DNA of 64,000 nt from Cyanobacterium stanieri PCC 7202 (GTDB taxonomy: Bacteria > Cyanobacteriota > Cyanobacteriia > Cyanobacteriales > Cyanobacteriaceae). Where the stretch lies: positions 1,240,001-1,304,000 of the forward strand of contig CP003940.1 in the NCBI GenBank assembly GCA_000317655.1. The letters are read 5' to 3'. How positions within the stretch are numbered: position 1 is the first letter of the stretch; each line of letters opens with the position of its first letter. This document shows, piece after piece, positions 8,948 to 56,394 of this stretch. The translations under genes were made by a program, and so were the position numbers. Under the pieces are notes generated by a model. The model had not been told where the DNA came from. It was given only the letters and a program-made list of their open reading frames with translations, and searched no databases.

Positions 8948-9575
8948 ATGGGTTAAGTGAAATTTATTCAAATTAAAGACAAATATATTTTAAACTTAGT
9001 TAAATATTGCTTCTGAAGGTTGTCTGCTTATGTCTCGAATTCTCATTAACCAATACCGTAAAGAATTGGAAGATAGAAAACGTTATGGAGGCAGTCACAA
9101 TGAGGGGGCGATTCGTTATGCTTTTGCAAGTTTGTTAAATGGTTATTGTCGTCCGAGGGATTTTATCTTGGTGGAGGAATTAACCATTGCCTCTCGTCTG
9201 CAAACCAAAATTCGCCTAGATGGCATTGTCAAAGATGCCCTCAGACTTGATTGGGGATATTGGGAAGCCAAAGACGAAAAAGATAGCCTTGACGCAGAAA
9301 TTGAAGCGAAATTCAAAAAAGGTTATCCCACCGATAATATTTTGTTTGAGGATAGCAAAAATGCTGTCTTAATTCAAAATGGCAATGAATCTTTGCGCAT
9401 TAATATGGGTGATGATGATGCTTTAGATGCTTTAATTAATCAATTTTTGGACTATGAAAGGGCAGAAGTAAAAGATTTTCGAGGTGCGATCGCCACTTTT
9501 AGCCAAGACTTACCCACCATAATCAATACTCTCCGAAATTTGATCGATGCTCAAGATCCCCCCACCATCATATCC

Positions 9576-9827
9576 CCCTCTCCTGTGGGAGAGGGGTTAG
9601 GGGTGAGGGCAGATTCCCCCGCGGGAGAAAGTTTAGACGTGAGGGCAGATTCTCCTGTGGGAGAGGGGTTAGGGGTGAGGGCAGATTCTCCTGCGGGAGA
9701 AAGTTTAGACGTGAGGGCAGATTCTCCTGTGGGAGAGGGGTTAGGGGTGAGGGCAAATTCTCCTGCGGGAGAAGGTTTAGACGTGGGGGCAGATTCTCCT
9801 ACGGGAGAAGGCTTAAATGTGAGGGCA
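9576..9827 (+). repeat. Seven-unit array of a 36-bp in-frame repeat
   Basis: There are seven contiguous 36-bp units, each encoding variants of the 12-mer DSPVGEGLGVRA, inserted between the nuclease and methylase parts of the restriction gene. Two unit types alternate: VGEGLGVRA (with a perfect CCCCTCTCC/GGAGAGGGG hairpin in the first) and AGESLDVRA. The array is an exact codon multiple, so the frame is kept. Confidence 0.92.
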
Positions 9828-11826
9828 AAAAATCAACAATTCATAGAAGCAAGAAATAAATTTCTCAAAGTCTGCCAAGAATCCATCAACCCCGACATCT
9901 CCATTGATGACATCAGAGAGATGATTATTCAACACATTTTGACAGAAGATATATTCACCAATATTTTTAGTGATGCTCAATTTCACCAAGAAAATAACAT
10001 CGCCAAACAACTAAATGAAGTCATCAAAACCTTCTTTACAGGTAGCGTCAAAAGAAATACATTTAAAACGATCCAAAGTTATTATAACGCCATTATTCGC
10101 ACCGCTTCAAGCATTGTTAACCACCAAGAAAAACAAAAGTTTTTAAAAGTAGTTTATGAAAATTTTTATAAAGCCTATAACCCCAAGGAAGCCGATAGAT
10201 TAGGGATTGTTTATACCCCTAATGAAATCGTTAAATTTATGGTACAAAGTACCGATTATTTATTAGAAAAACACTTTAACAAAACTCTGGGGGATAAAGG
10301 GGTAGAAATCTTAGATCCTTGTACTGGCCGGGTACATTTGTCACAGAAATATTAGACTATTTATTAACAAGAGATATTGAGCATAAATATCAGCATGAGA
10401 TTCATTGTAATGAGATGTCAATTTTGCCCTATTACATTGCTAATCTCAACATTGAATATACTTACCAACAAAAAACGGGGGAATATTTAGAGTTTCAAAA
10501 TATCTGTTTAATGGATACTTTGGATAACAGTAATTTTGCAGGGAAACAATTTGATTTGTTTGCTATGAATCAAGAAAATACGGGCAGAATTAAGCGACAA
10601 AATGACAGAAAAATATCAGTAATTATTGGTAATCCTCCCTACAATGCTAAACAGGAAAATTTTAATGATAATAATGCTAATCGTAAGTATGAAACTATTG
10701 ATAAAAGAATTAAAAATACTTATATAAAAGAAGGTACCGCCCAAAATCAAATCGTTGTGTATGATATGTACACTCGTTTTATTCGTTGGGCTACGGATAG
10801 ACTAGATGATGAGGGGATTGTCGCTTTTATTTCTAATTCTTCTTTTATTGATGCTAGGGCATTCGATGGTTTAAGAAAGTGTTTGGAGGATGAATTTGAT
10901 TATATTTATATCATTGATTTAGGAGGAAATGTTAGGACTATTTCTGGGAAAGATGGCATTTTTATTTCTGAAAAACATACTATTTTTGGTACTGCTGCCA
11001 TGACTGGTATTGCAATTTATTTTTTAATTAAAGATAAAAGTGCGGTTAGTAAAAAATTATATTATAGTCATCCTTTTCATATTCATGAATTAAGAGAAAA
11101 TAAGTTAAATTATCTTAATACCAATCCTTTTAAGGATATTCCTTTTGAAAGTATAAAACCTGACAAAAAACATAATTGGATTAATCAAACAGATAATGAT
11201 TTTGATGATTTGATCGCTTTGATTGACAAGGATGTGAAGGCAGGTAAAACTAAAACAGTTAGGAATAAAAAACGGGAGAGTTAGAAAATAAAGTATGTGA
11301 TGAGGCAATTTTTCAGTTATTTTCATCGGGGTTAAAAACTCAAAGAGACGAATGGGTTTATGATATTGATAAAGAAAATTTAGAAGCAAAAGTTAATTTT
11401 TTAATTAAGACTTACCAAGCAACTTTAAAAGATAATAGTTATAAAGATAACAATAAAATAAAATGGGATGCTGAATTAAATAGTTATTTAAAAAGAGGAA
11501 TAGAAAAAAACTTTAATAGTGAACAAATTATTAAAAGTAATTATCGTCCGTTTTATACTCAGTATCTTTATTTTGATAAGCATTTTAACGGTAGGACTTA
11601 TCAATGGTTTAATATTTATAATCAAGATGATTTAGATAATAAAATTATTGTTTTACCTGGATTAGCTTCCCCAAAAGATTTTCATTGTTTAATCTCAGGA
11701 AATATTGTAGATTTAAACTGTTTACCTGCTGGTTGTCAGTGTTTACCACTGTATAGATATGAAGAAGGAGAGAGAATAGAAAATATAACCGATTGGGCGT
11801 TGGATTTGTTCAGCGAATATTATCAA

Positions 11827-12050
11827 CCCTCACCCCCCCAGCCCCCCTCTCCCAAAGGCGAGGGGGGAGAAACTTCCCCATCTTCATCTTCATTCCCCTC
11901 TCCTGCGGGAGAGGGGTTAGGGGTGAGGGCAGATTCCCCTGTGGGAGAAGGATTAGACGTGAGGGAAGATTCCCCCGCGGGAGAAAGTTTAGACGTGAGG
12001 GCAGATTCCCCTGTGGGAAAAGGCTTAGACGTGAAGGCAAATTCTCTTAC
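11827..12050 (+). repeat. Second in-frame repeat block, upstream side of the DUF559 insert
   Basis: The block opens with a C-rich repeat (PSPPQPPSPKGEGG, 11830-11869), then a short SPSSSSFP spacer, then four to five decaying units of the same 36-bp repeat from about 11895 (DSPVGEGLDVRE, DSPAGESLDVRA, DSPVGKGLDVKA). It lies inside the C-terminal part of the restriction gene, just after the DLFSEYYQ residues. Confidence 0.9.
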
Positions 12051-12087
12051 GAAAGAAGATTTATCGGAAATAGTTGGTGCAAAGCGT

Positions 12088-12426
12088 GAAATTCCACGAG
12101 AGTTATTAGAAAAAGCAAGGCAGTTACGGGCTAAACAAACTCCAACGGAAGTTATTTTGTGGGAATGTTTACGGGGAAATCGGTTATTTAATTTCAAATT
12201 TCGCCGTCAGCATAATATAGGTTCATTTATTGTGGATTTTTATTGTCATTCAGCAAAATTAGTAATAGAAGTTGATGGTAAAATTCATGAGAAATCAGAA
12301 CAAAAAGACAAGGATAAAAATAGAGATGAATGGTTAAAAAATCAAGGCTTAAAAGTGTTAAGAATTACTAACGAAATGGTAATCAATAACTTAGAAGAAA
12401 CCCTAAACATAATCACTCAAAACTTA
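12088..12426 (+). other. Nested DUF559 (Vsr/PD-(D/E)xK-like) nuclease domain
   Basis: About 113 codons encode a DUF559 domain in the same frame as the host restriction gene. Its features are RELLEKARQLRAKQTPTE, ILWECLRGNR, FKFRRQHNIGSFIVDFYC, LVIEVDGKIH and LRITNEMV. The D-(x)n-EVDGK arrangement is the expected nuclease core. DUF559 proteins normally stand alone, and here the domain is flanked on both sides by the 36-bp repeat and interrupts the target-recognition region. I see it as an inserted cassette carried by the repeat family. Whether it is still expressed is doubtful, given the upstream frameshifts. Confidence 0.85.
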
Positions 12427-12428
12427 TT

Positions 12429-12490
12429 CCCCTCTCCTGTGGGAGAGGGGTTAGGGGTGAGGGCAGATTACCCTATGGGAGAAAGGGCGC
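12429..12490 (+). repeat. Repeat unit closing the DUF559 insert
   Basis: One full 36-bp unit with the CCCCTCTCC/GGAGAGGGG hairpin (SPVGEGLGVRA) plus a degraded second unit (DYPMGERALG) lies directly after the DUF559 domain. The host reading frame resumes at INKEDIFNYVYGVLHNP. Confidence 0.88.
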
Positions 12491-12720
12491 TGGGTAGGCA
12501 ACAACGAATTATTAATAAAGAAGACATTTTTAATTATGTTTATGGAGTTTTACATAACCCCAAATATCGTCAAAAATACGAACTAAATTTAAAAAGAGAA
12601 TTTCCAAGAATTCCATTATATGAAGACTTTTGGCAGTGGGCAAGTTGGGGTAAAAAATTGATGGATTTGCATTTAAACTATGAAACAATCAAACCCTATG
12701 AATTAAGAAGGATTGATTTA

Positions 12721-12762
12721 CCCTCACCCCCCCAACCCCCCTCTCCCAAAGGCGAAGGGGGA
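12721..12762 (+). repeat. C-rich repeat PSPPQPPSPKGEGG, second copy
   Basis: The sequence is nearly identical to the copy at 11827-11869, including CCCTCTCCCAAAGGCGA. It is inserted in frame between LRRID and VKLKADK of the restriction gene. Confidence 0.85.
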
Positions 12763-13163
12763 GTAAAAGTGAAATTGAAAGCGGATAAAATTAAACATAA
12801 AATTATCCTTGATGAGATTACCACGTTGGAAAATATCCCTCCGACAGCATGGGAATATAAATTGGGAAATCGTAGCGCTTTGGAGTGGATTTTGGATCAA
12901 TATAAAGAGAAAAAACCGAGGGATAAAACCATCGCTGAAAAATTTAATAATTATCGTTTTGCTGACTATAAGGAGGAGGTAATTGATTTGTTGATGAAGG
13001 TGACGACGGTAAGTGTGGAAACGATGAAAATTATTGATGAAATGACAAAATAATACAATTGTTTCTCTCGTATTTATGATGTTGACTAAATAAATTGGAT
13101 AAGCTAACATTTGCTAATTAATTCTTTGACAGTTAAACTTTCTTCTAATCGGTAACTTACTAT

Positions 13164-13670
13164 ATGAATTCCCCCACCTGTGCTCTTTGGATTTTAGTCG
13201 CTAGAACGGATATTCCTTTTATGATGTTAACCGTTCCTCATTTAATCAGAATGAGTAATTTTCCTTTTACAGAGAGAGTTTTGGCGGTTGATACTGCTCC
13301 ATTATCAGGGGATAAGGTGAATCGTCCGGGGGTAGGTACAATGGAACAATTAAGAAAAAATACTCAAGAACTGTTAGAGAAAGGAATAATTGATAGGATT
13401 GTTGATATTAATTATGATGACGAATATCGTCGTCAAGTTTATCAAAAGCATTTTGGTTTTCCGTTACGTCAAAGTCATAATTATAAGGGGTATCCCATTT
13501 TAGGAACTATATTCACCATTGAAGAGCCTAAAACAGATTATATGTTGCATTTTGATAGTGATATGCTTTTATATCAGCATCCAGGTTTTAGTTGGGTAAA
13601 AGAAGCTATAAAACTATCAGAAAAACACCCAGAGATAATGTCTTTTCGTCCTTTAACAGGACCTCCTTTA
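13164..13670 (+). pseudogene. Probable glycosyltransferase, N-terminal part cut by an IS
   Basis: About 169 residues of a cytoplasmic protein with a Rossmann-like start (CALWILVARTDIPFMMLTVPHL) and a DxD-type motif in DYMLHFDSDMLLYQHPG suggest a GT-A glycosyltransferase. The frame runs into the left end of an IS5-type element at 13671 and stops at once, so the protein is truncated. A 37-codon tail after the IS (14377-14490) may be the original C-terminus. The exact family is uncertain. Confidence 0.65.
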
Positions 13671-14376
13671 GAACCTGTTTGAAAAGTCTTGATGTAGAAT
13701 ATGTCAGTAAAAAACTGATAAAAAAAAATGACAAGACTATCATACGATACTGACCTCACTGATTACCAGTGGGAAATTTTAAAATTATTAATTCCTCCTG
13801 CTAAAACTGGGGGCAGAAATCGCTCTGTGAATATTAGAGAGGTAGTTAATGCCATCTTTTATCTTCTTGCCAATGGAATAAAATGGAGGGCAATGCCTCA
13901 CGATTTTCCCAAATGGCAAACGGTTTACACTTATTTTCGAGGTTGGGAATCTGATGGTACATGGCGTGGCATTAATCAGCAACTACGGGAACAAGTACGA
14001 ATAGAAGCGGGAAGAAACTCAAAACCTAGTGCCGGTAGTATTGATAGTCAGTCGGTAAAAACCGCAATGGGTGGAGAAGAAATCGGCTTTGATGGTGGAA
14101 AGAAAGTCAAGGGTAGAAAAAGAACGATTTTGGTTGATACCATGGGTTTGGTACTAGATTTATGTGTTCATGGTGCAAAACGTTCAGATCATCAAGGAAT
14201 GGAATTGTTAGCCACTTTCACTTCGCAGTTTTGGGCATGTTTAAAAATAATTTGGGTGGATAGTACTTTTGCAGGGAAAGAATTTATCGCCACGATACAC
14301 AGAGAATTTGGCTGGAAATTAGAGCATGTAAAAAGGACAGATGAAAAACCAGGTTTCACGGTGATACCCAAAAGAT
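13671..14376 (+). mobile_element. IS5-family insertion element, right end deleted
   Basis: The left end reads GAACCTGTTTGAAAAGTC, typical of IS5-type terminal repeats, followed 40 bp later by the transposase start. No matching right end is present. The element stops within the transposase gene after VIPKR, and unrelated coding sequence begins. One deletion appears to have removed both the IS 3' part and part of the interrupted gene. The right boundary is estimated. Confidence 0.8.
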
Positions 14377-14378
14377 AG
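13728..14378 (+). pseudogene. IS5-family DDE transposase, C-terminally truncated
   Basis: The 216 residues open with a DUF4096-like N-terminus (LTDYQWEILKLLIPP, NAIFYLLANGIKWRAMPHDFP) and then enter the DDE core. The first Asp is in SIDSQSVKTA and the second in IWVDSTFAGKEF. Family members continue past PKR with a W(V/I)VERTFAWL helix that holds the catalytic Glu. That helix is missing here, so the protein should be inactive. It cannot move itself, though a full relative elsewhere might act on it. Confidence 0.88.
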
Positions 14379-55645: not shown

Positions 55646-55706
55646 ATTGGCTCGAAAGTAGTGTGTATTGCTGCTATTTGGAGGACGAAGGTAGAGAATT
55701 GTTAAG
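55645..55706 (+). pseudogene. Remnant of a RAYT transposase 3' end
   Basis: This stretch matches the transposase C-terminal coding region at 56281-56340: the translation DWLESSVYCCYLEDEGREL parallels DWFESSVHWYLQEKGRE, with one extra in-frame codon. It has no start. It is a decayed partial copy preceding the intact gene. Confidence 0.8.
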
Positions 55707-55727
55707 AATTAAAAAATCAACTTTTAG

Positions 55728-55793
55728 GTTTGTAGTTGCCACTTTAGTGGCATTATTATCAGTAGAATCAAGGCTAAAGCCATTACTACAAAC
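55728..55793. repeat. REP-like palindrome upstream of the transposase
   Basis: Outer arms GTTTGTAGT and ACTACAAAC enclose inner palindromic pieces GCCACTTTAGTGGC and GGCTAAAGCC. It has the same plan as the REP at 56400-56453. Confidence 0.75.
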
Positions 55794-55800
55794 TAGGATT

Positions 55801-56394
55801 ATGTATGAGTATCATAAATTAAGTCATCAACAAAAATTGGAATTAGTGCAAGAGAGACTTAAAAAAGGATTTCCCGCCCATTCTCCTCCTCATCCCATAC
55901 AAATTGAGAGTTTTTATTTGCTTACTATTGCCTGTTATCAACATCAAAAAATTTTAAATACTCCATCTCGCCGCCAACAATTATTAAACCTCTTGTTTGA
56001 AAAATTTATTCATGAAGGAATAGAAATTAGAGGATGGGTAATTTTGGTGAATCATTATCATTTATTGGTCTATTTGCCCAATTTATCAATTCTCTCCTCA
56101 ATTTTTAAAGCAATTCATGGTTTTACTTCCTATCAATGGAATTTAGAAGATAATCAAAGAGGACGTAAAGTATGGTATCGTTTTAGCGATCGCGCCATTC
56201 GCTCCAAAAGACATTATTACACAACCCTGAACTACATACATTATAATCCTGTGAAACATAACTACGTTAACTCTCCTTATGACTGGTTCGAAAGTAGTGT
56301 ACATTGGTATTTACAGGAGAAAGGTAGAGAGTGGTTAAGAGATAGTTGGGTGAAATACCCTGTAAAAGACTATGGAAAAGGATGGGATAATTAA
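55801..56394 (+). CDS. REP-associated tyrosine transposase (RAYT, IS200-like Y1)
   Basis: The 197-residue protein is a Y1 transposase with the HUH metal motif in WVILVNHYHLLVYLP and the candidate catalytic Tyr in HYYTTLNYIHYNPVKHNYV. The frame is open to 55663, but the first 46 residues read through a transposase remnant and a REP, so the start at 55801 (MYEYHKLSHQQ, with AGGATT before it) is preferred. Such enzymes mobilise or maintain REP palindromes, which lie on both sides here. Activity is plausible because both motifs are intact. Confidence 0.88.
   Translation: MYEYHKLSHQQKLELVQERLKKGFPAHSPPHPIQIESFYLLTIACYQHQKILNTPSRRQQLLNLLFEKFIHEGIEIRGWVILVNHYHLLVYLPNLSILSSIFKAIHGFTSYQWNLEDNQRGRKVWYRFSDRAIRSKRHYYTTLNYIHYNPVKHNYVNSPYDWFESSVHWYLQEKGREWLRDSWVKYPVKDYGKGWDN

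Follow-up and report, generated by a model that had tools for sequence, protein, structure and literature searches.

A Type ISP restriction gene with an in-frame insert

The window (the whole 64,000-nucleotide stretch of DNA that was analysed) lies in a cyanobacterial genome of 3.16 Mb in one contig and carries, on the plus strand, the gene for a Type ISP restriction-modification enzyme of the single-polypeptide type (9030-13053; Pfam ISP_coupler, N6_Mtase, Eco57I and Type_ISP_C). The coupler and methylase parts are encoded by ORFs 5' of the ORF at 11800-13053 (Pfam), and in this last ORF we found a DUF559 domain (PF04480, 5e-34, residues 102-209) directly before the Type_ISP_C specificity domain (PF18135, 8.5e-50). 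Hence, the sequence-only reading was correct in placing a complete DUF559 domain in frame inside a restriction gene. In the sister species (genome G056, locus L036), the host gene is intact, with 1289 codons and the same DUF559 fusion. Nucleotide comparison with L036 showed that the window's host gene is split by one single-base frameshift near 10327 and another near 11266, and the DUF559 reading frame stays open despite both. Since its host gene is frameshifted, the window copy of the cassette may be decaying. Just downstream, a short ORF (13164-13682) is apparently interrupted by an IS-type transposase ORF (13728-14378).

The nuclease domain (12103-12426, plus strand; PF04480 5e-34, family alignments and an AlphaFold model with a pLDDT of 92) is bracketed by palindromic repeats, which we identified by repeat comparison and DNA folding. 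On the left, an outer REP on the minus strand (11827-11867, found by direct and inverted comparison) consists of the tail CCCTCACCCC (11827-11836) and a hairpin (11842-11867), and an inner REP on the plus strand (11895-11930) consists of a hairpin (11895-11916) and the tail GGGGTGAGGG; together they make a REPIN-like pair with its tails pointing outward. The region 11826-11931 folds as tail-hairpin-hairpin-tail, with the two hairpins inside a stem of the tails CCCTCACCCC and GGGGTGAGGG (z -4.1, with 0 of 200 shuffles equally stable). We call the window's repeats class A, and a class-A end here reads CCCCTCTCC-loop-GGAGAGGGG-TTA-GGGGTGAGGG. On the right of the domain are a REP with a hairpin at 12429-12450 and a G-rich tail (12428-12466, plus strand, fold z -3.1) and a second, degenerate unit (12467-12500, plus strand, repeat comparison) that reaches the host joint INKEDIF, as set by the homologues whose joint is empty.

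Also on the left, tandem 36-bp (12-codon) units occupy 11899-12078 on the plus strand (repeat family D1), and the later units have lost the perfect hairpin and translate to PSPVGEGLDVRAD-like peptides. The units start at 11899, 11935, 11971 and 12007 (spacing 36) 5' of DUF559 and at 12433 3' of it, and they are 63-83% identical in 72-nt windows. The 36-bp repeat reported on both sides of the domain is therefore real, with four units upstream and one downstream; as for the repeat of the cassette, there are several classes, and this unit is no more than a local tandem version of one of them.

Class-A repeats also occur without the nuclease in the same gene. A solo REP on the minus strand (12720-12766; family D2, 94% identical to 11826-11872) lies in frame farther 3' in the host gene, where it reads DLPSPPQPPSPKGEGG, and an array of seven repeat units lies in frame at 9573-9830 on the plus strand (fuzzy match). 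At the site of this array, L036 has one unit only and its protein reads PSPTGEGLDVRA; place by place, the window copy and L036 carry different numbers of 36-bp units. With up to 3 mismatches, the 32-bp repeat core occurs seven times genome-wide, five times in the host gene and twice in one other place, and the reversed-pattern control gave 0 matches in the whole genome. The Rfam search of the repeats returned nothing beyond weak, sub-threshold matches, among them Whalefall-1 RNA (E 0.03-0.09) lying exactly on the repeats at 9574-9610, 11894-11930 and 12428-12464; the Whalefall-1 family may include REP-like hairpins such as these.

We found that the DUF559 family core, D..E.DG..H, is nearly invariant in the family alignments. 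The AlphaFold model matches Ngo0050 (3hrl; profile match 5e-33) and the catalytic domain of the EDxHD homing endonuclease I-Bth0305I (3r3p; profile match 7.7e-6, Foldseek 6.9e-5, TM 0.64-0.75), and its structural matches to PvuRts1I/AbaSI and Vsr are weak (1vsr, E 0.075). No HUH or catalytic-tyrosine domain was detected in the cassette enzyme. The predicted fold thus matches the PD-(D/E)XK/EDxHD-like type, of the EDxHD homing kind, and not the HUH transposases. One paper places the DUF559 of Thermosynechococcus inteins in the EDxHD homing family (PMC9403480).

Hairpin repeats around DUF559 genes

We searched 146 genomes of the phylum for DUF559, found 76 positive and took the flanking DNA. An independent scan of bacteria and archaea, with one genome per species, gave 80 further named DUF559 loci, which are weighted to the clade of the query, the closer alignment set A2. 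These 80 loci span the Chloroflexi, Bacteroidota, PVC group, Elusimicrobia, Thermodesulfobacteriota, Myxococcota, Proteobacteria, Kryptoniota, one Methanophagales archaeon and others.

Perfect GC-rich hairpins occur at 4-8 per kb within 100 bp of DUF559, compared with about 0.1-0.2 per kb at 1-4 kb. Both flanks carry hairpins at 53 of 90 cyanobacterial and 42 of 82 other DUF559 loci; in comparison, this was so at 7 of 2523 random positions of the same loci (0.28%) and at 0 of 30 loci of Uma2, another small nuclease-like family used as a control. Flank-to-flank similarity reached at least 16 at 74% of 167 DUF559 loci and at 2.8% of control positions, leaving about a quarter of DUF559 loci without matching flanks, and G-quadruplex motifs were found on both flanks at 44 of 167 loci versus 0 of 869 controls. 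Hence, the predicted enrichment of repeats next to DUF559 genes is strong. Stand-alone DUF559 genes are flanked by the same repeats as the cassettes inside genes. Flanking hairpins are absent at the intein-borne DUF559 (L092) and at several phage copies.

The general unit is a GC-rich hairpin with a G-rich tail, mostly in inverted copies. We found this hairpin-plus-tail pattern in 45 of the 146 phylum genomes and the reversed pattern in none. DUF559 is present in 38 of the 45 genomes with the pattern versus 38 of the 101 without it (Fisher p 1e-7). Of 150 listed hairpin-plus-tail sites, 19 were counted by hand as having a DUF559 domain no more than 1 kb away; repeats outnumber nuclease genes in some genomes, and seven repeat-bearing genomes are without DUF559.

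The window genome has two other DUF559 genes, both bracketed on each flank by hairpin families unlike the window's, which we call classes B and C. These two families are CCCCCCTT..AAGGGGGG with the tail TTAGGGGGATC and CCCCCCAAGTTTGGGGGG with the tail TTTAGGGGGCTACCC. Mapped on the nuclease tree, repeat class requires 17 changes versus 40 for shuffled labels (7 versus 25 in the cyanobacteria alone). The host gene is likewise clustered on this tree (15 changes versus 34), and linked inheritance may contribute to the pairing of repeat and nuclease; indeed, it alone could explain their co-variation. The idea of a nuclease travelling with its own repeat is supported in that bracketing is typical of the family, and naming one 36-bp repeat was too narrow in that the partner differs between nuclease clades.

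Viral contigs (L182-L193 and L198) carry DUF559 genes bracketed by inverted copies of other GC-rich hairpins (CCGCCCCCTATGGGGGCGG with CAGGTGGGGGCAAG). A search of viral contigs with the window protein as the sole query found one relative. We had also considered DUF559 as the missing partner of the alphaproteobacterial CGTC REPs and dropped this candidate, as L143, L168 and the viral L182-L193 carry other GC-rich hairpins.

Many cassettes lie within long reading frames. In-frame hosts confirmed by NCBIfam are LeuRS, IleRS, MetRS, MetH, UvrA, PriA, IspE, HsdM, HsdR, HydE, HisF and an MpaA-like amidase. The cassettes thus occupy many genes that are unrelated to one another and are often essential. 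In LeuRS, one site is filled in nine Bacteroidota loci, and in HsdM one loop is filled in six phyla; for the HsdM set, a single nuclease clade was not rejected (p 0.43). The repeats are translated in both orientations and in several registers, into peptides such as PSPxGEGLGVRA, PSPPxPLPRGEGG, PLPLRERVGVRGE and others. Since the peptides differ, conservation acts on the DNA. We found no splicing domain in the window ORFs, L318 or L322; an intein is present in L092 only, where (in genome G011) DUF559 lies within an intein-like segment of a DNA methylase, the same nuclease family by a splicing route.

Filled and empty insertion sites

The joint that is filled in the window is empty in most cyanobacterial homologues, which read NITDWGLTQFQTHYSDPT followed directly by ITKEDIFHYTYAVLHHPAYR or by ITKEDIFHY. 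These are the related restriction genes with an empty site that the sequence-only reading had called for, and they confirm its view that the host residues join smoothly once the insert is removed. A class-A DUF559 occupies this ISP joint in the window genus, L094, L318-L320 and L323. At L322 the joint holds a class-B DUF559 whose nuclease belongs to a distant clade, and at L326 it holds class-B repeats alone, arranged tail-hairpin-hairpin-tail. At a further locus, L321 (genome G275), a RAYT lies in frame at the joint (Y1_Tnp 2e-14, NF047646 2.6e-18). This RAYT sits between ACAAGGGGCTTAAGCCCCTTG palindromes, two on each side, and so forms an in-frame REPtron at the DUF559 joint.

For the whole set of DUF559s at the ISP joint, one origin, and with it a vertical-only history of these cassettes, was rejected (p = 1.6e-6). 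For the window and one other genus, one origin was not rejected (p 0.33). Hence, at least two independent DUF559 insertions have occurred at this joint. Vertical inheritance of the fusion, which had been named as evidence against mobility, was found only within the genus, as L036 has the same fusion; in the cyanobacteria at large, different DUF559 clades and a RAYT entered the joint in independent events.

A second site, in PriA, was followed in one uncultured family of the phylum. It is full in 7 of 50 genomes, and the rest have remnants or scars, or are empty, so that the element has been lost here with scars. Occupancy changes seven times on the host tree, with at least two changes forced by well-supported branches. 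The closest pair of full and non-full genomes (G098 and G104) looks from its sequences like a recent loss with one end left behind. Both the PriA site and the ISP joint thus show filled and empty alleles of the same site in related genomes, as homing endonuclease genes do. No target-site duplication was identified. For the empty site of the window genome's second DUF559 gene, a synteny search among near relatives gave scattered matches only. Movement between strains was not seen: in Azospirillum, the copies are vertical, with no empty site found. On plasmids of Azospirillum brasilense (L299 and L300), this vertically inherited DUF559 gene lies near prfA and has repeats at just one of its flanks.

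A candidate mobile nuclease cassette

The insert is probably, in our view, a mobile nuclease cassette bracketed by palindromes, a REP/RAYT-like unit that uses a homing-type nuclease. The cassette would consist of a small endonuclease of the Vsr/EDxHD type (DUF559) between two inverted REP-like ends, which in some cases are doubled to form REPIN-like pairs. The case for its mobility comes from comparison of loci, from which we infer cleavage and copying: DUF559 would recognise or cut either the repeats or the still empty site, break repair would then copy the cassette in, as in homing, and occasional jumps would carry it to new sites. Repeat pairs without the gene would be non-autonomous copies served in trans. 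The cassette would need no splicing because its repeats are stop-free in some frames and because the insertions that survive are those where the host protein tolerates extra residues; the in-frame state is probably the survival of harmless insertions and not a targeting rule. The earlier proposal of a homing-type or RAYT/REP-like selfish pair that inserts in frame is therefore supported at the level of sequence comparison.

The repeats could instead be moved in trans by a RAYT (an HUH transposase), with DUF559 a passenger caught between REPs, which we consider improbable. In agreement with this explanation, the ISP joint of another cyanobacterium is occupied in frame by a RAYT, and the window genome has a single RAYT of its own, which is in the window (55663-56394, plus strand; identified from its ORF, its flanks and an NF047646 match, E 7.6e-26, at G000:C1:1295906-1296286). 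However, the RAYT at the joint has a different palindrome, the window RAYT is flanked by repeats other than A, B or C, and repeats of these three classes were found at 0 of 30 RAYT loci. RAYTs are common in the phylum, yet none was detected in 29 of the 76 DUF559-positive genomes (hand count), and repeat class tracks the DUF559 tree.

Still less probable in our judgement is that DUF559 is a house-keeping, Vsr-like mismatch-repair enzyme encoded in hairpin-rich spots such as terminators. The Caulobacter DUF559 protein VsrA, reported to cause SOS damage upon loss of a cytosine methylase, was proposed to be Vsr-like (PMC12907096); nevertheless, hairpins that occur in pairs within an open frame are not terminators, control genes of the same phylum are without such hairpins, the patchy occupation of one site ill suits a house-keeping gene and the fold match to Vsr is weak compared with that to I-Bth0305I. 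Least probable of all is an adaptive domain fusion, in which DUF559 is a functional module of the restriction enzyme and the repeats are mere flexible linkers. Many hosts are indeed restriction or methylation genes, and the fusion is conserved in two species of the window genus. Against this, the same cassette is found in LeuRS, MetH, UvrA, PriA and IspE, gene-less repeats occupy the same joint, stand-alone DUF559 genes share the flanks, and the use of several registers and both orientations indicates that DNA, not peptide, is conserved.

The mobile cassette resembles several known systems in part. With REP/RAYT elements (REPtrons and REPINs; PMC3733652), it shares hairpins with a one-sided tail, inverted pairs around an enzyme gene, and gene-less copies that are dispersed or intragenic. 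It differs in that its enzyme is of the Vsr/EDxHD type (PF04480) and not an HUH/Y1 transposase, and in that its tails are G-rich (GGGGTGAGG, GGGGGATC) and not of the GTAG type. With I-Bth0305I it shares the catalytic fold, core residues, location in genes and repeated occupation of one site; unlike the homing endonucleases of inteins and introns, it is bracketed by palindromes, has no intron or intein, and stays in an open frame, presumably translated with the host. Rickettsia palindromic elements (RPE) and intragenic CGTC REPs similarly place palindromes in frame in unrelated genes (PMC10969869, PMC3733652), but they have no known associated enzyme and their sequences are unlike the cassette repeats. 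Ngo0050 (PDB 3hrl), solved without an assigned function, and the E. coli YcjD-type DUF559 proteins belong to the same protein family.

REP/RAYT pairs, in-frame palindromes (RPE and intragenic REPs) and DUF559 in inteins are thus each already known. Our search of the open-access literature turned up no paper on such cassettes or on a connection between DUF559 and palindromic repeats, so novelty is provisional. Together, these results point to a widespread selfish element, apparently not described before, whose insertion leaves the host gene unbroken. We are more tentative, and lean slightly towards doubt, about the wider proposal that DUF559 marks a separate and very widespread class of mobile element, in which a self-sufficient homing-type nuclease with cognate hairpin and G-rich ends enters bacterial and archaeal genes in frame without splicing and gives rise to a large part of those G-rich, REP-like repeats whose mover has so far been unknown.

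If the mobile-cassette explanation is true, it gives a biological role to a large nuclease family of 'unknown function', an enzyme to REP-like repeats without a known mobiliser, and a third mode in which selfish DNA persists within essential genes, as an in-frame insert that is tolerated without being spliced out of either the RNA or the protein. It would further suggest that selfish inserts make up many of the extra domains annotated in tRNA synthetases, helicases and restriction enzymes, and would point to the G-rich hairpin and tail, often a G-quadruplex motif, as the DNA structure recognised. A protein of some 115 residues and a DNA oligonucleotide of some 40 nt would allow each step to be tested directly.

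Elsewhere in the window genome (L004, G000:C1:3092500-3096800), pieces of all three repeat classes are combined in composite clusters of about 110 bp, which occur three times. These clusters surround a partly duplicated gene that resembles an Rpn/PD-(D/E)XK nuclease and lies between pilin-like genes.
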